DNA of 52,904 bases from a virus. The notes beneath the pieces were generated by a model. It searched no databases. It saw only the letters and a list, made by a program, of their open reading frames with translations, and was not told where the DNA came from. Shown piece after piece: positions 13,288 through 36,800 of the stretch. The translations under genes were made by a program, and so were the position numbers. Location of the stretch: the IMG/VR virus record IMGVR_UViG_3300013123_000008, positions 1 through 52,904 of that record, one strand, 5' to 3'. Every line of letters starts with the position of its first letter. Position 1 is the first letter of the stretch.

Positions 13288-15837
13288 ATTTACACATCGA
13301 TATATTATGACCGTAATAAGAATCGCATCCATTTGTGGGATGATAAATTAGGATATAAAAATATTCCATATCGGAAGTATGCGTATATTTCAGATCCAGA
13401 TGGAAATTATTCTACTATATTTGGAAATACAGTATCTAGAATTACATCTTGGACTGATGATATGAAATCTCAGTTATGGGAATCAGATGTTTCTCCTGAA
13501 AATAGAACTTTAATAGATTTGTATTACAATTTTCCAGATAATGAATACCCTGAAAATAGAGTAATGACATTAGATATTGAAATTGAAACAAAACACGGTT
13601 TTGAAAATATGCATCTTGCACAAGATGTAGTAAATGCAATTTCAATTCACGATAGTCAAACAAATAAATACCATGCATTTATATTAGATTATGATGGGTC
13701 AATTGACACAAGCAAAATTTCTGAAAATAAAGATATTCATATTAATTTTTATAATAATGAAAAAGATCTATTATGTGATTGGTTAGATACTTTTGTATCA
13801 CTTAGACCCACAATTATTACTGGATGGAATATAGAATTCTTTGATATACCATATTTGGTCAGAAGAATTAGTAAACTTTTAGGTTCAGAATGGTTGAATA
13901 AATTATCACCAATTGGAATAATTAGATACTCAGAATTTAAAGAAAGATTTATAATAGCTGGGTTAAATACATTAGATTATTTATCTTTATATAAAAAGTT
14001 TACATTTTCAGAACAAGCAAATTATAGATTAGATTCAATAGCTAAAAACGAATTAGGTTATGGTAAAATTGAATTTGACGGAACATTAGAAACATTATAT
14101 CGAGATGATATTAATAAATTTTTGGAATATAATATTAATGATGTTAAGTTAGTTGTTGAAATTGATAATAAAAAGAAACTTATAGATTTAGCAATTGGTC
14201 TTTCTCATAAAGGAAAAATACCATATGAAGATGTTTTTTATCCATCTAAATATTTAGAAGGAGCAATATTAAGTTTTCTTAAAAAGGACAATTTAGTTGT
14301 TCCTAATAAACCACAGAAAGGTCAAACACTTCGTAAATTTGAAGGTGCATATGTTAAACGACCAATACCTGGATTATATGATTGGGTATTTGATTTAGAT
14401 TTAACATCTCTATATCCTTCAATAATTATGTCATTAAATATATCACCTGAAACTAAATTAGGTAAAGTAGTAAACTGGAATGAACTTGATTTTCATAGTA
14501 AAAAAGAACGTAAATGGACTGTTTCTGCTACACGGGCCGATGCATCATCTGATATAGAATTAAATACAGATGGATTAGTAGAATTATTAACTGATTCGAA
14601 ATGTTCAATTTCATCTAACGGAATTATTTATAAACCACATTCTGAATACGGTGTTATTCCTAGTATTTTATCAAAATGGTTCGACGAAAGAGTTGAATAT
14701 AAAAACCTAATGAAAAAATACGGTAAGTCTAATAATAAAGAAAAATATGACTTTTATGATAAATTACAAAATATCCAAAAGGTATTGTTAAATTCATTAT
14801 ATGGAGTACTAGGATTACCTGTATTTAGATTCTATGATTTAGATAATGCTACTGCAGTTACACTTACAGGCCAGACTATAATTAAATCTTCTGCAGCTAA
14901 GGTTAATGAATATTATAAAAATATATTGAGTACTAATGAAGATCATGTAGTATATATAGATACTGATTCTGTATTTGTTAGTGCTAAGCCATTATTAGAT
15001 AAATTATATCCAGATGCAGACCCAACAGATACAAAGAAAACTATTACAAATGTGGCCGAAATAGTTAATAATGTTCAAAAATATATAAATGATAGTTATG
15101 ATTTATTAGCTACTGACCAGTTATTTATAACATCAGGTAAACATAGGTTTCAAATTAAACAAGAATTAATATGTTTATCAGGGTTATGGACAGCTAAAAA
15201 ACGATATGCATTATTCGTTTTAAGTAGAGAAGGTATATTAATTAATAAATTAAAAGTAACTGGATTAGATACAGTTAGATCTTCTTTCCCACCGGCATTT
15301 GCTGGATTTATGGAAAAGACAATTAAGAATATTTTAGAAAAAATTCCTAAGGAACAAATTGACGCTGAAATATTATCTTTAGAAGATAATCTTATTAATA
15401 TTGAAGTAAGTAAAATATGTAAAAATACTTCTATAAGTGATATTACAAAATATTCTTCTTCATCGACAGATTTATTCTATAATGAAAGAATATTTAGTCC
15501 AATTAAAAAGGGTACACCTGCACATGTAAAAGCTGCTATAGCTTATAATGATTTAATTAGACATTATAATTTAGAAACAAAATATAATTTTATTAGAAAT
15601 AAAGATAAAGTTAAATGGTGTTATCTTAGAAAAAATAGGCTTGGGTTAGATAAAATAGCATTTAAAGGATTCAATGATCCACCTGAAATCATAAAGTTCA
15701 TTGATCAATATATAGATAAGCAAGCTATGTATGAATGTGAATTGAAATCAAAATTAGAAAATATTTTTGAAGCAATGAATTGGAAATTTCCAAATAAAAT
15801 GCAAGTCAAAGCAAGTAGATTTTTTAATATAAATTAA
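13288..15837 (+). CDS. 43: Family B DNA polymerase, gp43-like
   Basis: This is the replicative polymerase with 3'-5' proofreading. Exonuclease motifs are LDIEIETKHG, GWNIEFFDIPYL and YNINDVKLV. Polymerase motifs are DLTSLYPSII, LLNSLYGVLG and YIDTDSVFV. The nearest ordinary start (TTG 13333) would cut off IYTSIYYDRNKNRIHL, which matches the first beta strands of phage B-family polymerases. The frame is open back to 13276. I therefore place the start at ATT 13288, 8 nt after AAAAGG (13274-13279), giving about 849 aa. ATT starts are rare but known (E. coli infC). The exact start is inferred; the gene identity is not in doubt. Confidence 0.93.
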   Translation: MYTSIYYDRNKNRIHLWDDKLGYKNIPYRKYAYISDPDGNYSTIFGNTVSRITSWTDDMKSQLWESDVSPENRTLIDLYYNFPDNEYPENRVMTLDIEIETKHGFENMHLAQDVVNAISIHDSQTNKYHAFILDYDGSIDTSKISENKDIHINFYNNEKDLLCDWLDTFVSLRPTIITGWNIEFFDIPYLVRRISKLLGSEWLNKLSPIGIIRYSEFKERFIIAGLNTLDYLSLYKKFTFSEQANYRLDSIAKNELGYGKIEFDGTLETLYRDDINKFLEYNINDVKLVVEIDNKKKLIDLAIGLSHKGKIPYEDVFYPSKYLEGAILSFLKKDNLVVPNKPQKGQTLRKFEGAYVKRPIPGLYDWVFDLDLTSLYPSIIMSLNISPETKLGKVVNWNELDFHSKKERKWTVSATRADASSDIELNTDGLVELLTDSKCSISSNGIIYKPHSEYGVIPSILSKWFDERVEYKNLMKKYGKSNNKEKYDFYDKLQNIQKVLLNSLYGVLGLPVFRFYDLDNATAVTLTGQTIIKSSAAKVNEYYKNILSTNEDHVVYIDTDSVFVSAKPLLDKLYPDADPTDTKKTITNVAEIVNNVQKYINDSYDLLATDQLFITSGKHRFQIKQELICLSGLWTAKKRYALFVLSREGILINKLKVTGLDTVRSSFPPAFAGFMEKTIKNILEKIPKEQIDAEILSLEDNLINIEVSKICKNTSISDITKYSSSSTDLFYNERIFSPIKKGTPAHVKAAIAYNDLIRHYNLETKYNFIRNKDKVKWCYLRKNRLGLDKIAFKGFNDPPEIIKFIDQYIDKQAMYECELKSKLENIFEAMNWKFPNKMQVKASRFFNIN

Positions 15838-19778: not shown

Positions 19779-20336
19779 ATGGTTATTATAATTGAAGGAC
19801 CTGATAACGTAGGTAAATCAACTCAAATAAAATTATTAATGAAAAACTTAATAAAACATCCAACATATACCATTCATTTTTCTAACGTACTCGGTATATC
19901 TAATGATGAATCTAAACAATTTAGTAGAATATTATATAATGATATGTTTCATCTGGTGGATGAAGCATTTAAGTTTAATAGAAATATCATATTTGATAGA
20001 GCTCATTTAGGAGAATATGTTTATTCACCTATTTACAGAAACTATTCAGGCGAATTTATTTTTGAAATTGAAAATAGATTTTTAAATACTAGTGGATTTA
20101 AAAGTATAGTTTTGTTTTTAATGGTTGATGATCCAAATAAATTAATTGAAAGAGAAGATGGTAAATCATTTTCTAACAAACTCCATTCTAAAATATTAGA
20201 AAAAAATATGTTTATAGAAGCATATTTTAAAAGTCAAATAAAAAATAAATTTTTAATAGATGTAAATGGTAGGTCTATTACTGAAATTCATAATGAAATA
20301 TTAAATGATTTAAATGGAATAACAAGTGAAGAATAA
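19779..20336 (+). CDS. Thymidylate/deoxynucleotide kinase-like P-loop protein
   Basis: The N-terminus VIIIEGPDNVGKSTQIKLL is the P-loop of the thymidylate kinase family, and IIFDRAHLGEYVY corresponds to the DR(Y/W) substrate loop. A region before KSFSNKLHSKILEKN acts as the lid. At 185 aa it is near kinase size. Because the phage makes hydroxymethyl-dCMP, this kinase could phosphorylate dTMP, hm-dCMP or both, as T4 gp1 does; the substrate is inferred. It starts 42 nt after dut and ends 1 nt before the glucosyltransferase-like gene. Confidence 0.8.
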   Translation: MVIIIEGPDNVGKSTQIKLLMKNLIKHPTYTIHFSNVLGISNDESKQFSRILYNDMFHLVDEAFKFNRNIIFDRAHLGEYVYSPIYRNYSGEFIFEIENRFLNTSGFKSIVLFLMVDDPNKLIEREDGKSFSNKLHSKILEKNMFIEAYFKSQIKNKFLIDVNGRSITEIHNEILNDLNGITSEE

Positions 20337-20337
20337 A

Positions 20338-21453
20338 ATGAAACTTGCCGTAATTAAATTCGGTGGAAGAATTAATGGTAATGGTGATGGCGCTATAGGT
20401 GGAGAAGTATTAATTGCTGTAGATCTTTTAGTAAAAGGTGGTAACGAAGTACATTGTTATACAAAATTGTGTAATAAAGACATCTTAATTAAAGATGTTA
20501 TATTTCATGATTCTTCTACATTTGACCCAAATACTCAATATGATGCTCTAATTGTTATAAATGGTAATATTAATTTTTATGGTGGTTTAACTTCAACTGT
20601 TGAAATGGACAATTTAAAAATTATAAATTCATTTAAAGGTAAAGTTATTTACATGTTATTTGATCCTATGTTACCACTAAAACAATACTGGGATGGCATT
20701 AAAATTAAACAAGATAAATATAACTGGTCAGATAAATACACAGAAAAAGAAATGTTTATAGAACGAGATGATATTATTTATATTTCTCAACCTTATAATC
20801 TTCAGGCAGTAGATACAATTTTACAAAAGACTGGAGTCAAACACAAATACATAGTACACTATCCTTTATATAAGATGCATTTGGCATACTATGATAGATT
20901 AACATTTAATAATAATCCTAGACTTGTAGATTTATCATACGGTGGAACATTTAGAAATAAAAAACGCGAAGATAAACTTATAAAATTTTATTTTGGATAT
21001 CCAGATAACTATAACATAGACATATTTGGTAAAATTAAACTTGATAATTTTACTTCTAAAAAAATTATAAATCTAACAAGTCCTAAATTTACTTCTGGAG
21101 TACCTCATAATCATGTAAGATATAGAATGGAAAAATCTTTAGGTACAGTAGTCATAGGAGATAAATGGTATGAAGGTAAAAATTTAGCACAAAGAGTATA
21201 TGAGAATATTTTATCAAACACTATTAATTTTATCGATTTAGATTTAGATCCTATGAGGTTAGTATATAGTCATGATACTTTTTTTGATATGCTGTATGTC
21301 AAAGACAGAGAAGAAGTTATACGTGTTTTAGATATGATAAAAGAACATCCCGACAGATTAAAAGATATTTGTGATGCCCAATATGATTGTGTATCAATTA
21401 ATAAACAACAATATATAGATGATTTAACAGACATGATAGGAAATTTAACATAA
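20338..21453 (+). CDS. T4 beta-glucosyltransferase-like DNA glycosyltransferase
   Basis: The protein would add a sugar to 5-hydroxymethylcytosine in phage DNA. Landmarks line up in order with T4 BGT: MKLAVIKFGG, YDALIVINGNINFYGG, KVIYMLFDPMLPLKQYW, YTEKEMFI then ISQPYNL, LSYGGTFRNKKREDK, DIFGKIK, FTSGVPHNHV, VVIGDKWYEG, and RVYENILSN. At 371 aa it is slightly longer than BGT (351 aa). I chose ATG 20338 over GTG 20326, which would overlap the kinase. The adjacent isomerase, phosphatase-fusion and nucleotidyltransferase genes suggest the donor may be a sugar other than UDP-glucose. Homology is strong by eye; donor identity is unknown. Confidence 0.87.
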   Translation: MKLAVIKFGGRINGNGDGAIGGEVLIAVDLLVKGGNEVHCYTKLCNKDILIKDVIFHDSSTFDPNTQYDALIVINGNINFYGGLTSTVEMDNLKIINSFKGKVIYMLFDPMLPLKQYWDGIKIKQDKYNWSDKYTEKEMFIERDDIIYISQPYNLQAVDTILQKTGVKHKYIVHYPLYKMHLAYYDRLTFNNNPRLVDLSYGGTFRNKKREDKLIKFYFGYPDNYNIDIFGKIKLDNFTSKKIINLTSPKFTSGVPHNHVRYRMEKSLGTVVIGDKWYEGKNLAQRVYENILSNTINFIDLDLDPMRLVYSHDTFFDMLYVKDREEVIRVLDMIKEHPDRLKDICDAQYDCVSINKQQYIDDLTDMIGNLT

Positions 21454-22028
21454 TGAAATTTAATACATATATTGAATACATGAATAAGATTTATACTGAT
21501 TCATTATTTGAAACTGCAGTTGATAATTTTATAGTAGATGCAAAAATGGCAAAACGTATATTTTTTATAGGTAACGGTGGTTCTGCATCATTAGCATCTC
21601 ATTTTGCTCAAGATATTAATAAAGCAACACAACCTAGTTTAAAAATATTTTCAATTCAGAGGACTACTGCTATTTCATTATGTGATAATACTGCATTTAT
21701 TACAGCTTTAGCTAATGATGATGGGTATGAAACAATATTTACACAACAACTTGAAGCTCATAACTTTGATCCATCCCATGATTTATTATTTGCAATATCA
21801 TGTAGTGGTAATTCTAAAAATGTTGTTAATGCAATAAAATATATTCCTTATGAATTACGACAATGTGTTTATATAATGACAGCGTTTAATGGTGGTGAAA
21901 TATGCACATTAGTATCTCCACACCATCATATGCACATCCATACTAATGATATTTATACTGCCGAATCTCTACACTCAGTTTTACATCATTATATTATAAT
22001 TAGATTGATAGAAGGTTATAATGATTAA
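21453..22028 (+). CDS. SIS-domain sugar-phosphate isomerase, GmhA-like
   Basis: IFFIGNGGSASLASHFAQDI and LLFAISCSGNSKNVVNAI are the two phosphosugar-binding loops of GmhA/DiaA-type SIS proteins, and HHHMHIHTNDIYTAESLHSVLHH supplies metal and base residues near the C-terminus. GmhA converts sedoheptulose 7-phosphate to D-glycero-D-manno-heptose 7-phosphate. A pentose or other ketose phosphate substrate is equally possible. At 191 aa it matches GmhA (192 aa in E. coli). It overlaps both neighbours (1 and 8 nt), placing it in one unit with the glucosyltransferase-like gene. Confidence 0.82.
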   Translation: MKFNTYIEYMNKIYTDSLFETAVDNFIVDAKMAKRIFFIGNGGSASLASHFAQDINKATQPSLKIFSIQRTTAISLCDNTAFITALANDDGYETIFTQQLEAHNFDPSHDLLFAISCSGNSKNVVNAIKYIPYELRQCVYIMTAFNGGEICTLVSPHHHMHIHTNDIYTAESLHSVLHHYIIIRLIEGYND

Positions 22029-23865
22029 TATTCCAAAAGATTTTTTTACTAGTTCTAAACATCCATTTAAAATTTTATTAATTTCAGGCGGGCATGGGTC
22101 ATCTGATTTTATTAAGAAGATATGGGAAAAAGAAGTATATAAAAAGAATATTCAAATTAAAGTATTATTTAATCCATTTGACGACGGTGCTTCTTATGGT
22201 ATAGTTAGAGATAAACTTGGTGTATCATGTTTAGGTGATGGTAGAAAAAATCAATATAATATGTTTTTACAATTATATGGTGATAAATTACCAGATTATG
22301 TAAGAGAAATTTATTATCTTTTATTTGAAAAGCGTCACTCGTTTGCTAGTAGTACAATATACATAGATACATTAGCAACACATATTTGGACTTTACTGGA
22401 AGCACACAAACATCATATAAATGAACCATATCACTTTACAACAGATGGTATTAAAATATTACATATTATTATTGATTCATTAAAACATTTTGCTGAAAAA
22501 GTATATACAAATACCCCGCATGACAGTTTTAATTTATCAAATATGTTTTATGGTATAATGGAGTTATATTCTACAAGTAGTCTTCAGGATTTATTAGATT
22601 CAATTTCACATTCTATATTTTGTTTAGGACCCAATAGTGTCATAACGTCATTAAATGATAGTGCTAGATTAATATCTAGGACAGAAAGAGGTATGACACT
22701 TTCACGTGAAACCCCAGATGTCATTGATTTTAAAAATCATTATAAAGTTGTAGGATATGATAATATTGTTGAACAGAGTATTGACTCATTTGAACAACAT
22801 AAAACTCCATTAAATTATTATATAGATAATAATGTTAAAAATTATATTTTAAATTGTGATTTAATGTTAATATGTCCAGGCACATTGTATAGTTCATTAA
22901 ATCCTACATTCTTAAATTACAATATTTTAGATTTGGTTACAAGATCAAATAGTAAAAAGTATATGTATATTAATGATATACCAGATACTGATTTTATGAC
23001 TAGTGATTATAGTAATTTAGATGAATACTATCGTAACTCGGTATTTAATAAAAACAAAGGTTTAATAGATAAATTTACACTATTACACAAAACCCATACT
23101 AATATTATTAGTGGTAAACAAATATTAAAAGTTGACTATGATAAATTTTTATATAGTTTATTATCTTATTACTTCTTTGATAGGTTAGTAGATTTAAATG
23201 AAATTCACAAGTTAAATTTAATTTTAGATTATGATGGCACAATATATTCATTAACTGATCCAGAAAGTACTGATACAATTGTTACTATAATTAATGATAG
23301 AATAGATTCTGACAAGTTGTTTATATCAACTGGTAACTATGTTATTAGAGAACATACCGTTAAATTAAAGGAACATAAAAATATTTTCCTTTCTAATGTA
23401 TATAATCCCGACCACACCCGTGACGACATTGATTTTTACGCCGGGTTTTTATTGAACAAGGACATAGTTTCACAATTAGATAAATATGAAAAATTGTATC
23501 CAATAGAAAATTTATTATTAAGTGATAGACATAATGATATAATATCTACAATTAAACATGTTAATACACATACTAGACACTTGATAAGTTCTGATTTAAA
23601 TAGAAAATTACTAAATTATGATATTGCACATGGACAACAACATATTCTAACATATTGTTTAGGTAAGACATCAATTGATTTTATTTATTCAGATTATTTA
23701 AAACAAAATTTAGATAAGTTTATAAATTTAAAATTTTCAATTTATATTGGAGATGGAGTAAATAACCCGTATTCAAATGACAGTAAAATTGCAAAAAAAT
23801 GTAAATACGGAGTTAATGTAAAAAGTTTAGTAGAAACATTATTATTTATTGAGGCATGTAATTGA
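22021..23865 (+). CDS. CofD/YvcK-like domain fused to a HAD phosphatase
   Basis: The N-terminal two thirds resemble the CofD/YvcK (UPF0052) fold: ILLISGGHGSSDFIKKIW, then NPFDDGASYGIVRDKLG with LGDGRKN, and later LMLICPGTLYSSLNP. YvcK proteins bind UDP-sugars; CofD transfers a phospho-lactyl group. The C-terminal third is a HAD hydrolase: LNLILDYDGTIYS (DxDGT), LFISTGN and IYIGDGVNN. The fusion is 614 aa in an unbroken frame. It lies between a sugar-phosphate isomerase and a nucleotidyltransferase, overlapping both, so a dephosphorylation step in activated-sugar synthesis is a reasonable inference. I do not recall this domain pairing. Confidence 0.75.
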   Translation: MINIPKDFFTSSKHPFKILLISGGHGSSDFIKKIWEKEVYKKNIQIKVLFNPFDDGASYGIVRDKLGVSCLGDGRKNQYNMFLQLYGDKLPDYVREIYYLLFEKRHSFASSTIYIDTLATHIWTLLEAHKHHINEPYHFTTDGIKILHIIIDSLKHFAEKVYTNTPHDSFNLSNMFYGIMELYSTSSLQDLLDSISHSIFCLGPNSVITSLNDSARLISRTERGMTLSRETPDVIDFKNHYKVVGYDNIVEQSIDSFEQHKTPLNYYIDNNVKNYILNCDLMLICPGTLYSSLNPTFLNYNILDLVTRSNSKKYMYINDIPDTDFMTSDYSNLDEYYRNSVFNKNKGLIDKFTLLHKTHTNIISGKQILKVDYDKFLYSLLSYYFFDRLVDLNEIHKLNLILDYDGTIYSLTDPESTDTIVTIINDRIDSDKLFISTGNYVIREHTVKLKEHKNIFLSNVYNPDHTRDDIDFYAGFLLNKDIVSQLDKYEKLYPIENLLLSDRHNDIISTIKHVNTHTRHLISSDLNRKLLNYDIAHGQQHILTYCLGKTSIDFIYSDYLKQNLDKFINLKFSIYIGDGVNNPYSNDSKIAKKCKYGVNVKSLVETLLFIEACN

Positions 23866-24578
23866 CATCATTTGCAATAATTTTGGCAGCAGGTAAACAA
23901 ACCCGGTTTGATTCTAATATACCTAAGTGTTTATACCCATATAAAAAAGATACTACAAAAACTATTTTAGAAAAAAATATAGAAATTGCGCACGCGTGGG
24001 GGTGTCACGTTGTAGTAGTATTAAATAGTGAAACTGATAATAGTAATATTATAAAAATTTTAAAATTACATAATAATATTAATATTACAATTGTTGATAT
24101 TATATCGGGCAAAGGTACTGGTCATGCAGTATACGAGGCGATAAAGCATTTATATATAAATGATGATGACAAGTGTTTTTTAATGTGGGGTGATTCAATA
24201 CAAGATAATATTGATTTATATAGGTTAACAGACAATGCGTATAATAATATAATGACTGTACCATTAAAAAGAGAAGATAAATGTTATATGAAATTTGTCG
24301 TTGATCCACATACAAGTTTGATTACAGGCGCCTATCACCCTTCAGGTATTGAATCAGGTTATCATGATTATTCATTTTTTTTATTTAATATAAAACATAT
24401 ATTTAACTTATTGTCTATATATGTATCGAAGAGTACTTCTACTATATTTAATAATATATATCCTGAAATAGATTTTATCCAATTATTTAATTTTTATCCA
24501 AATACGTTTAATTCAATTTTTCCAGAATATTCATCTATAAATGCGTTTAATACTATTAAGGAATATGAAGAATTATGA
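23862..24578 (+). CDS. Sugar nucleotidyltransferase
   Basis: The enzyme would join a sugar phosphate to a nucleotide. FAIILAAGKQTRFDSNIPKCL is the G-x-G-T-R-like NTP-binding signature of the family, GKGTGHAVYEAI binds the base, and FLMWGDSIQ carries the metal-binding Asp. The start is TTG 23862 in a TTGA overlap with the previous stop, an arrangement used by two other genes here. At 238 aa it is single-domain. With the SIS isomerase and HAD fusion it completes a possible NDP-sugar route feeding the BGT-like transferase. Nucleotide and sugar specificity cannot be read by eye. Confidence 0.82.
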   Translation: MTSFAIILAAGKQTRFDSNIPKCLYPYKKDTTKTILEKNIEIAHAWGCHVVVVLNSETDNSNIIKILKLHNNINITIVDIISGKGTGHAVYEAIKHLYINDDDKCFLMWGDSIQDNIDLYRLTDNAYNNIMTVPLKREDKCYMKFVVDPHTSLITGAYHPSGIESGYHDYSFFLFNIKHIFNLLSIYVSKSTSTIFNNIYPEIDFIQLFNFYPNTFNSIFPEYSSINAFNTIKEYEEL

Positions 24579-25441
24579 AAATACAAGGTAGTACATTTGC
24601 AGAAATTTATGAACAATTAATAAAAAGTATTTATTTAAATCCAGAATATATTTCATCACCTCGAGGTATGAAAATAAAAGAACAAACTAATTTAGAAATT
24701 ACATTAACTGATCCAACATCAAATTTATTTACCAATGTACATAGAAGTCCAAACCCAAATTATTTATATCCAGAATTACTTTGGTATTTTTTAGGTCGTA
24801 ATGATTTAGATTTTATATCAAATTATTCTAAATTTTGGAATAAACTAACAAACGACGGAATTTTGAATAGCGCATATGGTAATTTATTATTTACTCAGAA
24901 AAATGAACATGGATATTCTGAATATGGGTGGGCACTTGAGTCCTTAATTAATGATAAGGATTCCAGACAATCAATTCTACGATTTAATAAACCTGTTCAT
25001 TCATATAAAGGTAATAAAGATTTTGTATGTACGTTAAATGGAATATTTAATATTAGAAATAATAAATTAAATTTTACTACAACAATGAGGTCACAAGATG
25101 TATGGTTTGGAATAACATATGATATGCCATTTTTTACTATATTAATGCAGCAAGTGTTATTACATTTACAGGAATATTATCCTGATTTGACTTTAGGTAA
25201 GTACGTACACTATGTATTAAGTGAACATATTTATGAAAAAGATTTTAATAATATAGAACAAATGTTATTACATCCTTTTATTCCAGATTCAACACCACTC
25301 GTGAAATATAATCTGATAGATAAATATTGTAAACCATCCGATAAATTGTTATACGCATTAAATACACGTAATGTATTACTTCCTGAATACACTAATGACG
25401 ATCTTATAAATAATATTATTAAGTATTTAAAAATCAAATGA
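24575..25441 (+). CDS. 42: dCMP hydroxymethylase (thymidylate synthase family), gp42-like
   Basis: The enzyme would make 5-hydroxymethyl-dCMP from dCMP and methylene-tetrahydrofolate. The thymidylate synthase fold shows the nucleophile in DFVCTLNG (C152) and MRSQDVWFGITYDMPFF. Residue D183 stands 31 residues after the Cys. That is the same spacing as T4 gp42 C148/D179 and as TS C146/N177. Asp instead of Asn at this place selects cytosine over uracil. It is 288 aa (T4 gp42 is 246). It overlaps the nucleotidyltransferase and dCMP deaminase genes by 4 nt each. The cytosine specificity is inferred from this single residue plus the neighbouring BGT-like gene. Confidence 0.82.
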   Translation: MKIQGSTFAEIYEQLIKSIYLNPEYISSPRGMKIKEQTNLEITLTDPTSNLFTNVHRSPNPNYLYPELLWYFLGRNDLDFISNYSKFWNKLTNDGILNSAYGNLLFTQKNEHGYSEYGWALESLINDKDSRQSILRFNKPVHSYKGNKDFVCTLNGIFNIRNNKLNFTTTMRSQDVWFGITYDMPFFTILMQQVLLHLQEYYPDLTLGKYVHYVLSEHIYEKDFNNIEQMLLHPFIPDSTPLVKYNLIDKYCKPSDKLLYALNTRNVLLPEYTNDDLINNIIKYLKIK

Positions 25442-25929
25442 CAACAGATAAACAAATTAAACTTGATCATGTGTTTATGAATATTGCGTATCAATTTGCA
25501 TCTTTATCAAATTGTGTATCACACAAAGTTGGTGCTATCGCGGTTAAAGATGGAAGAATTGTTTCAACCGGATATAATGGAAGTTTGGTGGGAATGATGA
25601 ACTGTTGTGAGTTATTTCCTAATTATAATAAATTAACAGATAGAAATTTACATCATTGTTGGAGTAATGACCATGAAATACATGCAGAGATGAATGTGAT
25701 TTTATATGCAAGTAAACATGGTATATCTTTAGATGGGTCGACATTATATACAACTGTTCATCCTTGTAATCAGTGTTTAAAAAATATATTACATGTTGGA
25801 ATAACAACGATTAATTATGATGTTGATTATGATCTAAGTACAAAAAGTAATATGATGCAAGATTATATAACAAAAAATAAAATTAAAATACGCAAATTAA
25901 TTAAAATACGCGGAGACTCAAATGAATAA
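25438..25929 (+). CDS. cd: Deoxycytidylate deaminase
   Basis: The enzyme converts dCMP to dUMP for dTMP synthesis. HEIHAEMNVI carries the zinc His and catalytic Glu, and VHPCNQCLKNI supplies the two zinc cysteines. The N-terminal SHKVGAIAVKDGRIVSTGYNGSL is the family strand-turn. An extra Cys pair and His (NCCE and HHCW) before the HAE motif match a second zinc site seen in T4-type dCMP deaminases. It is 163 aa. Together with gp42-like and Dut it partitions dCMP between hydroxymethyl-C and T synthesis. No thymidylate synthase proper is seen in the window. Confidence 0.9.
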   Translation: MTTDKQIKLDHVFMNIAYQFASLSNCVSHKVGAIAVKDGRIVSTGYNGSLVGMMNCCELFPNYNKLTDRNLHHCWSNDHEIHAEMNVILYASKHGISLDGSTLYTTVHPCNQCLKNILHVGITTINYDVDYDLSTKSNMMQDYITKNKIKIRKLIKIRGDSNE

Positions 25930-26425
25930 ACAAATAAGAAATAATGTTAATACAAGCATAACAGGTGTACTTGAATTTGATTCAGATTGTAAAGTAAATT
26001 CTAATGTTGATAATAATTTACAATCTACCCAACTTCATACATTACCAAGTGATGAATTTGTAAATTTTAAATTATCATTATCACCGGAGGATATTGAACT
26101 CGTCCACAATATGGAAACTAAATATCCACAGATGACGGAAGAATTTAAACGTATTTGCACAACTCAATATTTAATGTTCCTCAGAAAACAAAATGACTAT
26201 GGTCCAAGTAATATTACATTTAATTCAGATTTAAACGATGAACAAGATCTTAGATTAAGTTTAACAGGTATTGTTGTAAGATTGAATGATAAAATTAATA
26301 GATTAGTTAATTTAATTCTTAAAAAAAATAAAACCTTAAACGAATCTGTTGAAGATTCTTTTTTGGACATGAGTGTTTATTCTAAAATAGCTCTTATAGT
26401 GTCGTCTAAGAAATGGGGTAAATAG
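25922..26425 (+). CDS. Nmad1-like (DUF1599) protein
   Basis: The C-terminal half has the Nmad1 pattern: FLRKQNDYGPSNI, LTGIVVRLNDKINRLVNLI, then NESVEDSFLDMSVYSKIALIV. Nucleotide modification associated domain 1 was named because it clusters with modified-base genes in phages; its activity is not established. The first 60 residues are polar and probably disordered. It sits directly after dCMP hydroxymethylase and dCMP deaminase, which fits the domain's known context. It overlaps the deaminase by 8 nt and the next gene by 1 nt. Confidence 0.75.
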   Translation: MNKQIRNNVNTSITGVLEFDSDCKVNSNVDNNLQSTQLHTLPSDEFVNFKLSLSPEDIELVHNMETKYPQMTEEFKRICTTQYLMFLRKQNDYGPSNITFNSDLNDEQDLRLSLTGIVVRLNDKINRLVNLILKKNKTLNESVEDSFLDMSVYSKIALIVSSKKWGK

Positions 26426-28112: not shown

Positions 28113-28664
28113 ATGATTAATGGTTACGAACATATACCTAAATTACAAAGAAAAAATATACTTTTATTGTCTGATGACTTGAGATTGTTTTCTGGTATAG
28201 GTACAATGTCTAGACAATTTGTTCTAGGTACTGCACATAGATACAATTGGTATCAAGTTGGTGCAGCAATTAATCATCCAGACACAGGCAAACGGATAGA
28301 TATATCTGAAGATGTAAATAAACATATAGGTATAAATGATTCTCAAATATATATTCAACCATATAATGGATATGGTGATCCTGATTTAATTAGAGCATTG
28401 ATGACTGAATTTAAATTTGATGCACTAATGCATTTTACAGATCCTAGACAATTTATTTGGTTATATCAGATGGCTCATGAAATTAGACAAAAGATTCCTA
28501 TTCTTTATTATAATATATGGGATAATTTACCATACCCAATGTATAATAAAGCGTATTATGAATCATGTGATGCATTGTTTTCAATATCGCGTCAAACATT
28601 TAATATTAATAAAGTTGTTCTAGGTGAAGATAATTTTACAATTATAAGGGATGTCAATGAGTAA
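28113..28664 (+). CDS. Glycosyltransferase GT-B fold, N-terminal half (split)
   Basis: The sequence begins NILLLSDDLRLFSGIGTMSR, a Rossmann start with the acceptor-side glycine loop of GT4-type enzymes, and continues to YNIWDNLPYPMYNKAYYESC and ALFSISRQT. It stops after 183 aa, where a full GT4 protein would run on to its donor-binding half. The next gene supplies that half in the +1 frame, overlapping by 14 nt. Either one gene is broken by an indel near 28655, or the two domains are made separately and coupled. Confidence 0.7.
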   Translation: MINGYEHIPKLQRKNILLLSDDLRLFSGIGTMSRQFVLGTAHRYNWYQVGAAINHPDTGKRIDISEDVNKHIGINDSQIYIQPYNGYGDPDLIRALMTEFKFDALMHFTDPRQFIWLYQMAHEIRQKIPILYYNIWDNLPYPMYNKAYYESCDALFSISRQTFNINKVVLGEDNFTIIRDVNE

Positions 28665-29538
28665 GCCATATCTATCATATATACCACATGGTATTAACCC
28701 AACTGAATATTATAAAATTCAACCTGAAGATTTAGAATATAAAGAATTAATAGAATTTAGAAATAAACTATTCAATAATAAAGATTATGAATTTGTTATT
28801 CTTTTTAATAACAGAAATATAAGAAGAAAAAATACAAGTAATATAATATTAGCATTTAATGATTTTTGTAAAAAATATTCTAAAGAAATAAATAGTAAGT
28901 TTGCATTAGTATTACATACTCAGACAATAGATCCTAATGGTACTGATTTATTTGCAGTTAAAAATGCAGTATGTAAAGACTATAATGTTATTTTTCATGA
29001 AGATAGATTACATCCTAAAGAATTAAATTTTCTTTATAATATTAGTGATGTAACTATTAATGTAGCTTTTGCTGAAGGTTTTGGTTTATCCACTGCCGAA
29101 TCACTTATGGCCGAAACAATGATAATTGCTACGGTTACTGGAGGTCTTCAAGACCAAATGGGATTTAGAGATGACGCAGGGCATTTGTTATGTTTTACAA
29201 AAACTTGGCCATCTAATCATAATGCATTAATAAAAACTCACGGCGATTGGGCAATACCCATATATCCGGTTGTACACAATTTAACAGGTTCTCCACCAAC
29301 CCCTTATATATTTGATGACCATACTTCAATACATGATATAACCTTTGCATTAGATAATGTATTTTCTATAGGAAAACAGGTTAGAGATAAAAACGGTAAA
29401 GAAGGTCGCAAATTTATGTTATCTAAAGAATCTAAAATGAGTACAGAATCAATGTGTAATACATTTATGTCTGATATAGAATTTGTGTTAAATAATTGGA
29501 CACCACAACCCCGATATGAAATGTTGAGGTTTGAATGA
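28651..29538 (+). CDS. Glycosyltransferase GT-B fold, C-terminal half (split)
   Basis: A 295-aa protein starting MSMSKPYLSYIPHGINPTEYY, which is the inter-domain linker region of GT4 enzymes. EFVILFNNRNIRRKN starts the donor domain, and FAEGFGLSTAESLMAETMII is the E-x7-E-type donor loop. Removing one base at GAGTAAG (28654-28660) would fuse it to the upstream half as ...VNEKPYLSYIPHGIN, a natural-looking junction. Separate translation is still possible because ATG 28651 lies before the upstream stop. Confidence 0.72.
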   Translation: MSMSKPYLSYIPHGINPTEYYKIQPEDLEYKELIEFRNKLFNNKDYEFVILFNNRNIRRKNTSNIILAFNDFCKKYSKEINSKFALVLHTQTIDPNGTDLFAVKNAVCKDYNVIFHEDRLHPKELNFLYNISDVTINVAFAEGFGLSTAESLMAETMIIATVTGGLQDQMGFRDDAGHLLCFTKTWPSNHNALIKTHGDWAIPIYPVVHNLTGSPPTPYIFDDHTSIHDITFALDNVFSIGKQVRDKNGKEGRKFMLSKESKMSTESMCNTFMSDIEFVLNNWTPQPRYEMLRFE

Positions 29539-29780
29539 AAAAAAAATTAAGTGAAAAATTAAAAAATGTTTGGTTATATATAACTTTTAATTTATTACAC
29601 ATGTCTATTAAATTTAAAGTATATAAATGGTTGTATTTTATTAAATGTATATTTAGTTTAAATAATAAATTGGACCCAATTATAAATATCCAAAATTTAG
29701 AAATAACAGATCTTAACAAAACATTAAATAAATTAATAAATAACCCATCAGTAATATTGGACAGAAAATATGATAACTAA
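29535..29780 (+). CDS. Unrecognised 81-aa basic protein
   Basis: It starts in an ATGA overlap with the split glycosyltransferase. The first half is Lys- and aromatic-rich (LYITFNLLHMSIKFKVYKWLYFI cut: LYITFNLLHMS, FKVYKWLYFIK), amphipathic, and could touch a membrane. No family recognised. It overlaps the next glycosyltransferase by 11 nt. Confidence 0.5.
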   Translation: MKKKLSEKLKNVWLYITFNLLHMSIKFKVYKWLYFIKCIFSLNNKLDPIINIQNLEITDLNKTLNKLINNPSVILDRKYDN

Positions 29781-31107
29781 ACAACTATTACTTTTTATTG
29801 CACCTGTAAATTCTAGATCTGGATATGGGGAACATTCTCGTGATATTTTGAGGTCATTGATAAAAATAAATAAAAAAACTGATAAATATGAAATACATGT
29901 TTTACCTATTAAATGGGGTATGACTCCATTAAATGTACTTAAAGAAGGTATAGATGATGATATATTAAATTTAATTTTAAAGATACCACATTTAGATAGA
30001 AAACCCGATATATCTATTCAACTAACTGTACCAAATGAATTTAACTCTGGCATTGCAAATTTTAATATTGGAATTACAGCAGGTATTGAAACTACGATGT
30101 GTTCAGCTCAATGGATTGAAGGTATGAACCGTATGAATTTTAATATTGTCCCATCAAATTTTGCTAAAAGTGTATTTGAAAATACAAATTATATAAAGCA
30201 AATTAATGGTAAAAATGTTGGAGAAACACTAAAATGTGTTAAACCTATCTTTGTTTTATTTGAAGGTGTAGACGATAAGGTATATGGTAAATCAAATAAT
30301 ACTGTAACTGATATTAAATTTGATTTGAATAAAATTAAAGAAGACTTTGTATTTTTATTTGTAGGGCATTGGTTAAATGGTGATATAGGACAAGATAGAA
30401 AAGATGTTGGAATGTTAATTAAAGTATTTATGGAAACATTTAAGATTACTCCTAACCCGCCTGCATTATTATTAAAAACTGGATCTGTATTTTCTAAAAT
30501 AGAAAGAGAAGAAATATATACAAAAATAAATGCAATTAAGTCAAGTGTGAAATTGGAAAATAATCAACATATACCTAATGTTTATGTTATTTTTGGTGAT
30601 TTAACTTCAAATGAAATAAATTCACTATATAATCATTCTAAAGTTAAAGCACATGTTACCTTTACTAAAGGCGAAGGTTTTGGCAGACCGTTATTAGAAG
30701 CAAGTTTAAGTGAGAAAATTATAATAGCTAGTGGGTTTAGTGGTCACACAGACTTCTTACCATCTACTGATTGTATTTTATTACCAGGTTCTGTTGAACC
30801 AGTTCATTCGTCGGCAGTTTGGCAAGGTGTTATTGAAAAAGATTCAACGTGGTTTACTGTTAATTATCAAGTTGCATCTAATGCATTACGCCAAGTATGG
30901 AAAAATCCTAGTTCATTCACACACAGAGCTAAAAATTTAGCTAAAAATACATTAAATAAATTTACATTAGATAAAATGACAGACGAACTTGAAAGAATAT
31001 TAAATGAAAATATAAAAAATATACCTGTATTCCAAGAGATGATACTACCTGAACTCAAATTTCCTAAACTTCCAAAACTAACTAAAATAGAGAAAATAAA
31101 TGAATAA
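29770..31107 (+). CDS. Glycosyltransferase, GT4-like
   Basis: Transfers a sugar from a nucleotide donor with a GT-B fold. The N-terminus reads LLLFIAPVNSRSGYGEHSRD. The donor domain starts DFVFLFVGHWLNGDIG and carries KGEGFGRPLLEASLSEKIII, the GT4 E-x7-E loop, then GFSGHTDFL. At 445 aa it is complete and single-frame, unlike the previous split copy. The acceptor could be a virion protein, DNA or host glycan; nothing in the sequence decides this. Confidence 0.82.
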   Translation: MITKQLLLFIAPVNSRSGYGEHSRDILRSLIKINKKTDKYEIHVLPIKWGMTPLNVLKEGIDDDILNLILKIPHLDRKPDISIQLTVPNEFNSGIANFNIGITAGIETTMCSAQWIEGMNRMNFNIVPSNFAKSVFENTNYIKQINGKNVGETLKCVKPIFVLFEGVDDKVYGKSNNTVTDIKFDLNKIKEDFVFLFVGHWLNGDIGQDRKDVGMLIKVFMETFKITPNPPALLLKTGSVFSKIEREEIYTKINAIKSSVKLENNQHIPNVYVIFGDLTSNEINSLYNHSKVKAHVTFTKGEGFGRPLLEASLSEKIIIASGFSGHTDFLPSTDCILLPGSVEPVHSSAVWQGVIEKDSTWFTVNYQVASNALRQVWKNPSSFTHRAKNLAKNTLNKFTLDKMTDELERILNENIKNIPVFQEMILPELKFPKLPKLTKIEKINE

Positions 31108-31348
31108 ACTAAAATATAAACATTTAACAACTAATGCAGTTGTATATGCTGAAAGAATATTAACAAAACGTACTATAAAGATGATTCTAAATGAATCACA
31201 AGACTCGAATGAAGTAGTTGCAAATGAAGATGATATATTAGTAAGCTATTTTAATGCATCAACAGATACAATAATCAAACAAGTATTATTAAAAGAAAAT
31301 GTTTTTATATCACAATATGTACCAATAAAACAATTATTAATGGATTAA
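31100..31348 (+). CDS. Unrecognised 82-aa protein
   Basis: A small charged protein overlapping the preceding glycosyltransferase by 8 nt. The N-terminal half is basic and the middle acidic (ESQDSNEVVANEDD). No motif recognised. It is followed 1 nt later by a zinc-ribbon gene. Confidence 0.55.
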   Translation: MNKLKYKHLTTNAVVYAERILTKRTIKMILNESQDSNEVVANEDDILVSYFNASTDTIIKQVLLKENVFISQYVPIKQLLMD

Positions 31349-31349
31349 T

Positions 31350-31814
31350 ATGGAAAAAACATTATGCCCGTGTTGTTCCACTAATAATGTTATAACAGAA
31401 GAAGTAAAACACAAATCTAATACTAGTGTTGTATATAGTTATTTATGTGTTAAGTGTGGATATAGTTCTAATTCATTATTTACAATTGGTAGTGAATCTT
31501 TAAATTCATTTTTTACAACTAATGATAAACAATTAGTTGTTAACCTGAATTATTTTGATGAGTCTACAGGTCTTTATTGGTTTCCTGTTATATTTTTGCA
31601 TGTAACAGGTGCCTTATTTCCAGAAGGCACTGTTGATAATTGGTATTGGGCTTATGTACCAATTATAAAAATAGAAGAAGATGAAAAAGAAAAATATGGT
31701 ACAGAATATAAGACTAGATTTGCAGTTGATAAAATGGAAAAATTTGATAAACTAGATTTTTTAGAAGCATGCAAGAAATTATTTACAATAGATAAAATGA
31801 TAACAGTAGATTAA
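31350..31814 (+). CDS. N-terminal zinc-ribbon protein
   Basis: MEKTLCPCCSTNNVI and YLCVKCGYSSN form a CxxC...CxxC ribbon within the first 45 residues. The remaining 110 aa contain WFPVIFLHVTGALFPEG and YWAYVPIIKI, a compact hydrophobic core. I recall related small proteins in T4-like phages, without known function. It is 154 aa, in a run of three unknown genes inside the sugar locus. Confidence 0.65.
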   Translation: MEKTLCPCCSTNNVITEEVKHKSNTSVVYSYLCVKCGYSSNSLFTIGSESLNSFFTTNDKQLVVNLNYFDESTGLYWFPVIFLHVTGALFPEGTVDNWYWAYVPIIKIEEDEKEKYGTEYKTRFAVDKMEKFDKLDFLEACKKLFTIDKMITVD

Positions 31815-31815
31815 T

Positions 31816-32268
31816 ATGAATAGTTTTATTAATGAACACAGGACTAAGATTAAAGGATATACAGTATCTAAATTTAATTACATTAAAATGGGAAATGTAA
31901 TTCGGTTTTCATATCCAAGCGAAACAAATAAATACCCACATGTATTCGTTTTAAATCCGCGATATCAGGGAAAATTGCATGGTCTTGTTGTTGATTATAT
32001 AAATCCAAGGTTATTTAATAAATTAAAAGATTTTATTATATCTGAAGCTGAAGAAGTAGAACCTGGTACACCAAATGATTTGGTTATATCATTGAGAGAG
32101 TTAAGTAAAAATTCTCAAACTCCAATGTCATTTTATGATATTAGATTAAAACCATTTATTAAAAAATATTTAAATGGTATTAATTGTTATAGAACATATG
32201 ATATTGTTAAAATTGGTAATCTTAATAAAGTAAATTATGTATTTAGTAAATACAAAGAAGTATTATGA
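31816..32268 (+). CDS. Unrecognised 150-aa phage protein
   Basis: The core reads GNVIRFSYPSE...HVFVLNPRYQGKLHGLVVDYINP, then MSFYDIRLKPFIKKYLNGINCYRTY. This order (a barrel-like strand pair with LNPxYxGKLHGL, later YRTY) is one I have seen in uncharacterised proteins of T4-related marine phages, but no function is known to me. It overlaps the next gene by 4 nt. Confidence 0.6.
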   Translation: MNSFINEHRTKIKGYTVSKFNYIKMGNVIRFSYPSETNKYPHVFVLNPRYQGKLHGLVVDYINPRLFNKLKDFIISEAEEVEPGTPNDLVISLRELSKNSQTPMSFYDIRLKPFIKKYLNGINCYRTYDIVKIGNLNKVNYVFSKYKEVL

Positions 32269-32882
32269 GTATCAGTTTTGCAATAACTGTTAAAGATGAA
32301 ATAGATGAAATTAAAGCACTAGTTGAATTATTATTAAGATATAAATCAACTGATGATGAAATAGTAATCCTTCAAGATATAACTACACATGATCGTAGTG
32401 TTAGAGAATATCTGGCTAATGAAGAACGAGTTACAAAATACATATTTAAATTTGATAATGATTTTTCTAAAATGAAAAATTATATGAATTCAGTTTGTGT
32501 GAAAGATTGGATATTTAATATTGACGCAGATGAATTACCACATGAGTGGTTATTAACAAATTTACCTAAAATATTAAGTAATAATACTACATTAGATGCA
32601 ATATGGGTACCAAGAATTAATATTGTAACTGGAATTACAGAAGAACATATTAGTAAATGGGGTTGGAAGGTTAACAGCCAAGGTTGGATAAACTGGCCGA
32701 ATGATCCGCAATGCAGAATATATAAAAATAGAGCAGATATATATTGGGATAAGAAAGTTCACGAACAACTTATGGGTGGGCGTGTGATAGGTAAATTACC
32801 AGATTTAGAAGAATATTCTATATATCATATTAAAGATATTAAACGACAAGAACAACAAAATAATTTTTATAATACATTATGA
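32265..32882 (+). CDS. Glycosyltransferase, GT2/GT-A-like
   Basis: FAITVKDEIDEIKALVELLL is the nucleotide-binding start, and WIFNIDADELPHEWLL carries the metal-binding DxD with the WaaE/KdtX-like DADE pattern. PQCRIYKNRADIYWDKKVHEQ follows. At 205 aa it is a compact GT-A domain. It overlaps both neighbours by 4 nt. Confidence 0.78.
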   Translation: MSISFAITVKDEIDEIKALVELLLRYKSTDDEIVILQDITTHDRSVREYLANEERVTKYIFKFDNDFSKMKNYMNSVCVKDWIFNIDADELPHEWLLTNLPKILSNNTTLDAIWVPRINIVTGITEEHISKWGWKVNSQGWINWPNDPQCRIYKNRADIYWDKKVHEQLMGGRVIGKLPDLEEYSIYHIKDIKRQEQQNNFYNTL

Positions 32883-33724
32883 ATGATTTAACATTTTGCA
32901 TATCAACTTATAATAATCTAGAATATCTAAAAATAGCAATTAAATCGGTTAGAAAAAATAGTTATTTTAAAGATGCACCTTTTATTATTCATGCTGAAAA
33001 TTGTACAGATGGTACAGATGAATGGTTAGGCGAATATTGTGGTCAATACAATTTACAATATTACATAGAAAAAAATGAAATACCAGTTGGTATTGGTGGA
33101 GGTATGAATTTTTGTGCAGATAAAGTTAAAACTAAATATATAAATTTTCTACATTCAGATTTTTATGTAACTAGAGATTGGGATTTAGAATTATTAAAAA
33201 TACATGACAAATATCCAGATGAAAAGCTATGGGTAAATTCGTTTAGAGTTGAACCTAATATATTTAATTCAACAATTAGACCTGGTACATATTTTGTAGA
33301 TAGAGATGTATTTGGTTCATATTGGTATAATTTTAATTCATCTTTATTTGATGAATGGTCTATTAATCTGACTAATATGGGTGATTTTGAAATACCTAAG
33401 GGTGAGGGTGTTAGTGGTTTAGTTAAAAAATCTGTTTGGGATGAAGTTGGTGGAAATGACCCAATATTTGCACCAACAAGTTGGGATGACATGGATTTAT
33501 TTTTACGTATGTTACAACGCGGAGTTAGGTTTATAATGCCAATTAAATCGGTAGTGTGGCATTTTGGTGGAAGAGGTTCTCATAGACTTGAAGAAAATAA
33601 TGGCGTAACGTCTGAAAGACAAAAAATTTCAGAAAATAGAAATTATGTTAAGTTTATACATAAATGGGATGGAAAACCTATATTTGATAAATATGGTATG
33701 ATTGCCGGGATAGAAAAATTTTGA
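32879..33724 (+). CDS. Glycosyltransferase family 2
   Basis: A GT-A enzyme: LTFCISTYNNLEYLKIAIKS at the start, HAENCTDGTDEWL for base binding, FLHSDFYVTRDWDLELL with the metal-binding pair, and FAPTSWDDMDLFLRMLQRG as the catalytic (E/D)D(D)xD region. C-terminal VVWHFGGRGSHR is a common ending in this group. 281 aa, complete. Related in layout to the 40238 gene, suggesting a local paralogue family. Confidence 0.83.
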   Translation: MNDLTFCISTYNNLEYLKIAIKSVRKNSYFKDAPFIIHAENCTDGTDEWLGEYCGQYNLQYYIEKNEIPVGIGGGMNFCADKVKTKYINFLHSDFYVTRDWDLELLKIHDKYPDEKLWVNSFRVEPNIFNSTIRPGTYFVDRDVFGSYWYNFNSSLFDEWSINLTNMGDFEIPKGEGVSGLVKKSVWDEVGGNDPIFAPTSWDDMDLFLRMLQRGVRFIMPIKSVVWHFGGRGSHRLEENNGVTSERQKISENRNYVKFIHKWDGKPIFDKYGMIAGIEKF

Positions 33725-34212
33725 AAACTTTAATTTATAAAAATAAAAAATATCCACTATTCCAGTCTAGTGGTTATGCTGCTAAATTTGCAATACCATA
33801 CGCGCAAACAATGTGTAATGGTAAAGGGTATGATATTGGGTGTATGAAAAAAGAATGGGCATTTCCTACTTCTATACCAATAGATTTAAATTTTAATAAC
33901 GGGTTTAATGCAACCAATTTACCGGAAAATAATGTTGATTATATATTTTCAAGTCATTGTTTAGAACATATTCCAAACTGGGTATATGTTATGGAATATT
34001 GGTATAGTGTTTTACGTGTCGGCGGTATACTTTTTTTATATTTACCAGATTATTCTCAAGAGTATTGGAGACCATGGAATAATAAAAAACATTTACATAT
34101 ATTTTCACCTCAGATAATCGAAGATGTTATGATACATTTAAGTTATATAAATATATTTAAATCTGGGATTGATTTAAATAATTCATTTATGATATGTGGT
34201 GAAAAAGCATGA
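33721..34212 (+). CDS. SAM-dependent methyltransferase (class I, short)
   Basis: GYDIGCMKKEWAFP corresponds to motif I (DxGC), IPIDLN to motif II, and VDYIFSSHCLEHIPNWVYVM with VLRVGGILFLYLPD to motifs IV-VI of the methyltransferase 11 family. The start is TTG 33721 in a TTGA overlap. At 163 aa it is short but complete. The substrate is probably a sugar or glycan made by the surrounding genes. Confidence 0.75.
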   Translation: MKTLIYKNKKYPLFQSSGYAAKFAIPYAQTMCNGKGYDIGCMKKEWAFPTSIPIDLNFNNGFNATNLPENNVDYIFSSHCLEHIPNWVYVMEYWYSVLRVGGILFLYLPDYSQEYWRPWNNKKHLHIFSPQIIEDVMIHLSYINIFKSGIDLNNSFMICGEKA

Positions 34213-35036
34213 ATGTCGTAATAACTGGTTATACGGGGTTTTTGGGTAAAAATATTTTAGAATATTTTCAATATTTCGATAATACTAATTTTTTATTAAT
34301 AGATAGAGATTATAATAAAATTAAAGATATAAAAAAATTTAAACCAGATTACATATTTCATTTCGGTGCAGAAATATACGATTATACTAAAATGTTTTCA
34401 GCAAATATCGAATTTACATATCTACTATTAGAAGAAATTAAAGATATAGATTTTAAATTATTTGTTAATTGTGGTTCATCATCAGAATATGGTAATAAAA
34501 TAAAACCAATGTCAGAACATGATGTCATAATACCACAGAATTTATATGATGCTACAAAATCTTCTGCTACATTATTAAGTACAGCTTTTGCTAAAATGTA
34601 TAATAAACCTATTATTACAATACGTCCATTTTCTGTATATGGCAAATATGAAAAAGAACATAGATTTATTCCTACAATTTTTAGAAAATTTTTTAATAAT
34701 GAAGAAATTACAATATATGACGGTGTACATGATTTTATACATATAAATGATTTTATTAATTCAATTGATTTAATACTTAAATCAAATAATACAATAGGCG
34801 ATATAATTAATATAGGAACAGGTATACAGCATAGTAATATGTATGTATATGACACAATGTGTAATATTTTTTCATACACAATTCCTATTATACACTATAA
34901 TTACAAATTAAAAAATACTGATTCTGATGTATGGGTATCAGATACATCATACTGTATAAATAAATATAATTTTAGTCCAAAATATAATTTATATGAAGGG
35001 TTAATGCTGGAATATGCACGTAGAAGTAATACATAA
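34209..35036 (+). CDS. NAD-dependent sugar epimerase/dehydratase
   Basis: An extended SDR enzyme acting on nucleotide sugars. VVITGYTGFLGKNILEYF is the GxxGxxG cofactor site, VNCGSSSEYGN the catalytic Ser strand, and YDATKSSATLL the YxxxK pair; IRPFSVYGKYE and FIHINDFINSI follow. It is 275 aa, slightly shorter than GalE/RmlB types, with a reduced C-terminal substrate domain. It overlaps the transketolase-like gene by 23 nt. Confidence 0.85.
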   Translation: MNVVITGYTGFLGKNILEYFQYFDNTNFLLIDRDYNKIKDIKKFKPDYIFHFGAEIYDYTKMFSANIEFTYLLLEEIKDIDFKLFVNCGSSSEYGNKIKPMSEHDVIIPQNLYDATKSSATLLSTAFAKMYNKPIITIRPFSVYGKYEKEHRFIPTIFRKFFNNEEITIYDGVHDFIHINDFINSIDLILKSNNTIGDIINIGTGIQHSNMYVYDTMCNIFSYTIPIIHYNYKLKNTDSDVWVSDTSYCINKYNFSPKYNLYEGLMLEYARRSNT

Positions 35037-35634: not shown

Positions 35635-35636
35635 TA

Positions 35637-35909
35637 ATGAATACACGTCAATTAAAATGTAATAACGGACAAATTTATACACTTAATTTAGATACACCTG
35701 AATTAATAGAACATTTTAATAATCCTAGATGTTGTACTATACCCATATTAAACCAAATAAATAATAATTATTATAATAGATTTATAGATATTACTGATAA
35801 TATAATATTAGACTTAGGGGCAAATATAGGGTTGGTATCAATCTATATGTCTTCGTACGCAAATAAAATAATATCGATAGAACCAACCCCATCACATTTA
35901 ATATGTTAA
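35637..35909 (+). pseudogene. FkbM-type methyltransferase, 5' part (frameshifted)
   Basis: The 90-aa piece ends just after motif I (ILDLGANIGLVSIYMSS) and motif II (KIISIEPTPSH). It terminates at 35909 within the FkbM fold. The remaining motifs continue in another frame from 35903. If one T is restored in the run at 35897-35899, the joint reads EPTPSHFNMLKHIT, a normal FkbM sequence. Together the parts make about 229 aa, the usual size. Confidence 0.7.
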
Positions 35910-36322: not shown

Positions 36323-36324
36323 AT

Positions 36325-36798: not shown

Positions 36799-36800
36799 TA

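Follow-up and report, generated by a model that had tools for sequence, protein, structure and literature searches.

The gene cluster

This report concerns five genes at positions 20,338 to 25,441 of the IMG/VR virus record IMGVR_UViG_3300013123_000008, which encode a relative of the DNA beta-glucosyltransferase (BGT) of phage T4, a dCMP hydroxymethylase (HMase) and, between them, a SIS-type isomerase, a CofD/YvcK-HAD fusion protein and a sugar nucleotidyltransferase (NTase). The entire record, 52,904 bases, was analyzed and will be referred to as the window. I consider it likely that the five genes constitute a DNA-glycosylation operon of a T4-related phage, equipped with its own, portable cassette for supplying the sugar donor. 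The conserved core of the cassette is two genes, those for the NTase and for the fusion protein, whose HAD domain resembles phosphomannomutase (PMM).

The five genes are part of a run of eight, from 19779 to 26425, that overlap or almost touch, as follows (E-values in parentheses):

19779..20336, plus strand: dNMP (thymidylate-type) kinase (PF02223, 6e-9; phrog_761, 3e-14)
20338..21453, plus strand: T4-type DNA beta-glucosyltransferase, BGT, of the GT-B fold (PF09198, 1.7e-17; T4 BGT structure 1bgt, 2.3e-33)
21453..22028, plus strand: SIS sugar-phosphate isomerase, GmhA-like (PF13580, 1.6e-8)
22021..23865, plus strand: fusion of a CofD/YvcK(GlmR)-like domain and a HAD-IIB PMM-like domain (PF01933, 5.1e-11)
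23862..24578, plus strand: GlmU/IspD-fold sugar-1-phosphate nucleotidyltransferase, NTase (PF12804, 1.3e-8)
24575..25441, plus strand: dCMP hydroxymethylase, HMase, of the thymidylate-synthase superfamily (5b6d, 3.5e-22; 1b49, 4e-13)
25438..25929, plus strand: dCMP deaminase (PF00383, 2.6e-20; phrog_174, 3e-48)
25922..26425, plus strand: weak match to DUF1599, nucleotide modification associated domain 1 (PF07659, 1.1e-4)

The five central open reading frames are intact, overlap one another by 1 to 8 nt, and are real genes in the order given by the original prediction, as judged from the frames themselves and from their family matches. Chance does not account for their grouping, since dozens of independent contigs have these genes side by side. 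The start of BGT is taken to be the ATG at 20338 rather than the mechanically called GTG at 20326, since relatives begin at the same MKxAVIK. A homologue of the dNMP kinase adjoins BGT or HMase in most relatives, and the enzyme probably activates the modified dCMP. The match of the last product to PF07659 (22.8 bits) falls below the cut-off of 25, as does that of its homologue in phage contig L002.

The encoded proteins

The match of the first of the five proteins to PF09198 (64.1 bits, curated cut-off 27) is accompanied by one to phrog_7922 (E 6.7e-51), and all of the T4 BGT residues E22, D100, R191, R195, D258, R269 and E272 are conserved in it. Each of these except D258 I take to be a catalytic or UDP-site residue of the T4 enzyme. 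The identification as a relative of T4 BGT is therefore secure. At the other end of the cluster, the HMase matches the thymidylate synthase (TS) fold, with catalytic cysteine C152 and with D183 replacing the asparagine of TS, precisely the residues earlier claimed for an enzyme that selects cytosine. The aspartate is kept in all 27 aligned homologues, and the closest structures are the (d)CMP hydroxymethylases 5b6d and 5jnh, with gp42 of T4 (1b49) also matched. According to recent work, the arabinose of Mosigviruses sits on 5-hydroxy-dC, the product of a homologue of HMase (PMC13390438), and therefore the label alone is no proof that the product is hydroxymethylcytosine (hmC).

The fusion protein consists of a CofD/YvcK-like domain (about residues 16 to 345) and a HAD-IIB domain (about residues 395 to 614). 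The first matches PF01933 at 42.7 bits (cut-off 30), as do all 12 members of the fusion family, and keeps the motifs GGxG, DDG and GTxxSS. A profile of the family finds the best YvcK structures at E-values of 1e-24 to 4e-26, and the model of the domain aligns to YvcK (2o2z) with a Z-score of 23.6, to FbiA with 19 and to CofD with 17, although identity to YvcK/GlmR is just 16% to 18%. GlmR of Listeria, Bacillus and Staphylococcus, a relative of YvcK, converts UTP and GlcNAc-1-P to UDP-GlcNAc in vitro (PMC10128056), which fits a role for the CofD domain in the metabolism of nucleotide sugars.

The best relatives of the HAD domain are phosphomannomutases and an alpha-phosphoglucomutase (4bnd), with the family profile matching PMM2 at E 2e-12 and the model aligning to PMM with a Z-score of about 13. 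Like the eukaryotic-type phosphomannomutases and the alpha-phosphoglucomutase of Lactococcus, it has the HAD-IIB fold, the DxD pair, the lysine of motif III and a GDxxxxND-type motif, but it is very divergent from them, is fused and has a shorter cap, and its mutase activity is putative. The Pfam family for phosphomannomutase, PF03332, is matched by only one of the 12 fusion proteins (E 0.002). Since the model of the whole fusion has a mean pLDDT of 68, only the folds of the domains are relied upon. The original prediction was right in seeing a CofD/YvcK domain joined to a HAD domain; its suggestion of a phosphatase was dropped in favor of a PMM-like protein in view of the matches to PMM and alpha-phosphoglucomutase, a mutase being the better fit.

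The NTase was correctly predicted to be a sugar nucleotidyltransferase, given its match to PF12804 and its model (pLDDT 86), which aligns over its full length to the uridyltransferase domain of GlmU (Z-score 25, 225 residues) and also to UDP-glucose pyrophosphorylases (Z-score 22). The motifs of the NTP site and the metal site are kept. With 238 amino acids, it has no counterpart to the acetyltransferase domain of GlmU and scores 40.5 bits against the GlmU equivalog, as compared to a cut-off of 366.9.

The SIS protein resembles phosphoheptose isomerases, both in the PDB (E 1.5e-14) and in NCBIfam (E 5e-21), but scores far below the cut-offs of the GmhA equivalogs (75 bits vs. 276 and 71.5 vs. 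209). Of the positions that I presume to form the active site of GmhA (E. coli numbering), H61 and H180 are kept, while E65 and Q172 are conservatively replaced by D and E. The protein was found above the cut-off in no record but the window among the 20 searched, including relatives that bear the cassette, and was dropped as a member of the conserved core. It is, so far as these sequences indicate, a local addition. The proposal that isomerase, phosphatase and nucleotidyltransferase together make a pathway to an NDP-sugar thus holds for the isomerase and nucleotidyltransferase as classes of genes found here, and fails as a conserved set, SIS being absent from relatives and the HAD domain being PMM-like.

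Distribution of the cassette among phages

A scan of viral sequences with the window's fusion protein alone gave no matches. The phage set considered here was assembled from scans with BGT and with the fusion, after removal of duplicate contigs. It contains the fusion in 34 distinct phage contigs, 33 of which also have the NTase, directly adjacent in 31. The lone contig without it (L002) is a fragment of 22.6 kb. BGT is found on the same fetched stretch in 28 of the 34, mostly no more than 1.5 kb away, and 22 of these 28 also have HMase. The association extends to a huge phage of 462 kb (LR756500.1), where fusion, NTase, BGT and HMase lie within 9 kb. Conversely, four large records (190, 260, 311 and 336 kb) that have a related BGT but no fusion have no NTase either. 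Enterococcus phage VPE25 (L146:2524-6437) also has a BGT without the cassette, its neighbors being a gene of the thymidylate-synthase family, a dUTPase and a gene whose annotation is nucleotide-sugar synthetase-like; sugar may be supplied here in a different way.

Six of the fusion contigs lack BGT in the stretch that was fetched. In three of them the cassette adjoins a gene for a TET-associated glycosyltransferase (TAGT, PF20691), a DNA glycosyltransferase unrelated to BGT: on both sides of the cassette in L006 (E 6e-31 and 9e-35) and beside it in L124 (3e-24) and L118 (9e-26). In a fourth, L115, TAGT is present but far from the cassette, and in the remaining two, L008 and L134, no TAGT was found. 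No TAGT was found in any of the tested records that carry BGT. The best evidence for a function of the pair in DNA glycosylation is its presence beside both of these unrelated DNA glycosyltransferases, and because it tracks BGT or TAGT across phages, the supply of sugar is the best reading of its role. To this extent the original view of the extra genes as a self-contained sugar set for DNA is upheld; SIS is not a shared part of it.

In L006, the two TAGT genes and the pair that they bracket occupy positions 1531-6140. A search for proteins of the TS family in the TAGT phages, the L006 record included, found none. A search of the same phages for TET/JBP (PF12851) also gave no match, but the TET/JBP control matched nowhere either, so absence is unproven.

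Relatives in bacteria

A scan of genome contigs with three sequences had given no matches, and a profile of 12 fusion sequences was used instead, finding 75 loci. In metagenome-assembled genomes (MAGs) of gut Clostridia, the order is glycosyltransferase, CofD-PMM, NTase, and the glycosyltransferase, checked in L031 and L037, is a membrane GT2 protein like EpsU/PgaC. In Lachnospiraceae and relatives, NTase and CofD-PMM lie among GT2 and GT8 genes. The motif GxHDxSxF...FNT is common to the NTases of phage and bacterial cassettes.

A second group (25 loci) has a CofD protein, a separate HAD_2 protein similar to beta-phosphoglucomutase, and an NTase, in polysaccharide clusters. It appears, therefore, that a mutase-related HAD protein, CofD and NTase have been assembled on two or more occasions, and in each case next to glycosyltransferases. 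This second lineage (L046, L050-L057 and L059-L103) comes from marine and environmental bacteria (SAR86, Prochlorococcus, Pelagibacteraceae, Acidobacteria), and CofD is sometimes fused in it to NTase or to GT2.

Some of the MAG contigs that bear the cassette may be phage. One binned as a Firmicutes MAG (L041:80-3351), in which dUTPase and dCMP deaminase follow the cassette, is probably a phage contig. A glycan cluster of Dysosmobacter (L044:4410-14350) has, besides a CofD-PMM and NTase pair, two SIS isomerases (GmhA-like at 5937-6617 and KdsD-like at 13302-13931) and NTases at 4410 and 11795.

Other genes of the window

The window contains a T4-like replication set (a gp32-like protein, RecA/UvsX, a 5'-3' exonuclease, a DnaB-type helicase and a family B polymerase), as well as RNA ligase and polynucleotide kinase. 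A cluster of the glycan type lies at 28113-38161. It includes a GT4-like glycosyltransferase apparently split over two frames (28113-28664 and 28651-29538), another glycosyltransferase (29770-31107), a GT2 protein (32265-32882), methyltransferases (at 33721 and 35903) and an NAD-dependent nucleotide-sugar epimerase (34209-35036). The epimerase could also act on the donor of the DNA sugar.

A possible pathway and its alternatives

The virus probably makes the donor of its own DNA sugar, by reactions whose nature and order are suggested by homology. HMase and the dNMP kinase would make hydroxymethyl-dCTP for replication. SIS might first isomerize a ketose phosphate to a sugar 6(7)-phosphate, the PMM-like domain would convert this to the sugar 1-phosphate, and NTase would convert that to an NDP-sugar, the nucleotide being bound or otherwise handled by the YvcK/GlmR-like part of the fusion. 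Finally, BGT would transfer the sugar to hmC in DNA. The balance tilts towards a sugar other than unmodified glucose, and what I can say of its identity I infer. One hint is that phages using glucose in the manner of T4 need no such sugar genes. Another is an apparent remodeling of the BGT loop that precedes the invariant Glu22: at the column of T4 V18, all 27 BGTs from cassette-bearing phages have Gly and all 13 without the cassette (including those of T4, CC31, PS2, S16, KMB26 and VPE25) have Val or Thr, but the contrast comes down to one or two independent contrasts, for which a paired test is not significant and cannot reach significance, and in the window's own clade the Gly depends on the alignment, the ungapped residue being Ala. 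The BGT tree requires the cassette to have changed two or more times, though a topology with all cassette-free BGTs in one clade is not rejected (p-AU, from the approximately unbiased test, 0.083).

Further considerations weigh against the proposal. Every catalytic residue of T4 BGT is kept, and therefore UDP-glucose could still be the donor. Sequence does not distinguish a mutase from a phosphatase in the HAD domain. Within its set, the CofD-PMM of the window diverges more than any other full-length protein (477 bits, as compared to about 600-690), and in two carriers, L008 and L134, no BGT or TAGT lies near the cassette.

Suppose that the cassette merely tops up UDP-glucose, by way of glucose-6-P and glucose-1-P, and that the DNA carries ordinary beta-glucosyl-hmC. 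The conserved BGT residues, the alpha-phosphoglucomutase among the relatives of the HAD domain and the alignment of NTase to UDP-glucose pyrophosphorylases would all be accommodated, but hosts normally supply UDP-glucose, the four large BGT phages manage without the cassette, the BGT loop near Glu22 varies with it, and SIS is left without a place, so I think this unlikely. I would give similarly little credence to a hypermodification akin to the synthesis of F420, in which BGT glucosylates hmC from host UDP-glucose, NTase activates a sugar or acid, CofD transfers the phospho-moiety as a phosphodiester onto the DNA-bound sugar, and HAD trims or prepares the phosphate. NTase and CofD are indeed the same in kind as the CofC/CofD pair, the CofD domain aligns to FbiA and CofD with its motifs intact, and BGT has its T4-like catalytic residues. 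However, YvcK rather than CofD is nearest in both fold and sequence, the bacterial cassettes accompany glycosyltransferases of the nucleotide-sugar type, and the PMM-like domain would be superfluous. No F420 genes were seen among the window genes scanned.

Action of SIS, CofD-PMM and NTase on surface glycans, their location here being incidental, would agree with the polysaccharide clusters in which their bacterial homologues lie and with the glycan-type cluster at about 28-38 kb of the window. I regard it as highly unlikely, since in phages the two core genes accompany BGT or TAGT within an operon for nucleotide modification, a linkage that already disfavors it. Returning to the preferred explanation, a donor made by the cassette, one special case is an NDP-heptose, with SIS converting sedoheptulose-7-P to heptose-7-P ahead of mutase and NTase. 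Phosphoheptose isomerases are the best matches of SIS, and the Dysosmobacter cluster has a SIS protein of 38% identity upstream of NTase-CofD-PMM, but the scores far below the GmhA cut-offs, the differences at two of four active-site positions and the cassette-bearing relatives without SIS make this special case improbable. Rather unlikely, too, is the most far-reaching proposal, in which phages join the portable cassette to DNA glycosyltransferases of unrelated families and so put an activated sugar, possibly as a CofD-type sugar phosphodiester, on hmC, a modification that would be new in its chemistry.

Comparison with known systems and significance

T4 shares with the window the BGT family and its catalytic residues, the HMase family with its Cys and Asp, and the proximity of the two genes. 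It differs in the loop before Glu22, in having no CofD-PMM, NTase or SIS in such a role and in using host UDP-glucose. RB69 and other Mosigviruses have their own set for the DNA sugar: isomerase, NTP-transferase, kinase and epimerase (PMC6024577, PMC13390438). As in the window, the set, here for arabinosyl-dC (ORF003c, ORF053_052c, ORF055c), has among its neighbors a pyrimidine enzyme of the TS family and a DNA glycosyltransferase, but that glycosyltransferase is a different one, a kinase stands in place of CofD-PMM, and the sugar is on 5-hydroxy-dC. RB69 was thus aptly cited as a precedent for a non-glucose sugar made by other enzymes, but not for arabinose on hmC. Phages of this type were not among the tblastn matches of the window's SIS and NTase in 50,697 phage records. 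Shewanella phage Thanatos, with deoxypentose on cytosine (TH1_060, TH1_063), likewise encodes a sugar nucleotidyltransferase for its DNA sugar, a UDP-xylose pyrophosphorylase in vitro (PMC12838424). It differs from the window in that TH1_060 is a homologue of RB69 ORF053_052c and a CofD-PMM fusion is not reported. Outside of phages, YvcK/GlmR, which binds UDP-GlcNAc and in Listeria is an accessory uridyltransferase, is closest to the CofD domain in fold and motifs, without the fusion to a PMM-like HAD and the pairing with NTase; F420 synthesis does pair an NTase with a CofD-fold protein (CofC with CofD/FbiA), but the window's domain is nearer YvcK.

Literature searches found no function described for YvcK-PMM fusions and no paper that connects CofD with PMM, with NTases of polysaccharide synthesis or with the modification of phage DNA. 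The cassette differs from known phage sugar supplies in its enzymes, in BGT as the glycosyltransferase and in being common to TAGT phages, and appears to be a conserved, hitherto undescribed way of supplying the donor with which phages glycosylate their DNA.

Sugars protect phage DNA from restriction and from Cas nucleases, and are in turn targeted by defense systems, so new DNA sugars matter to both sides. The conserved two-gene cassette, which phages with BGT and phages with TAGT have in common with glycan clusters of bacteria, makes it possible to recognize from sequence the DNA that probably bears an unusual sugar, and provides enzymes for direct assay. Its distribution suggests where phages acquired it. 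If the interpretation given here is true, it would also assign a role to the YvcK-PMM fusions.

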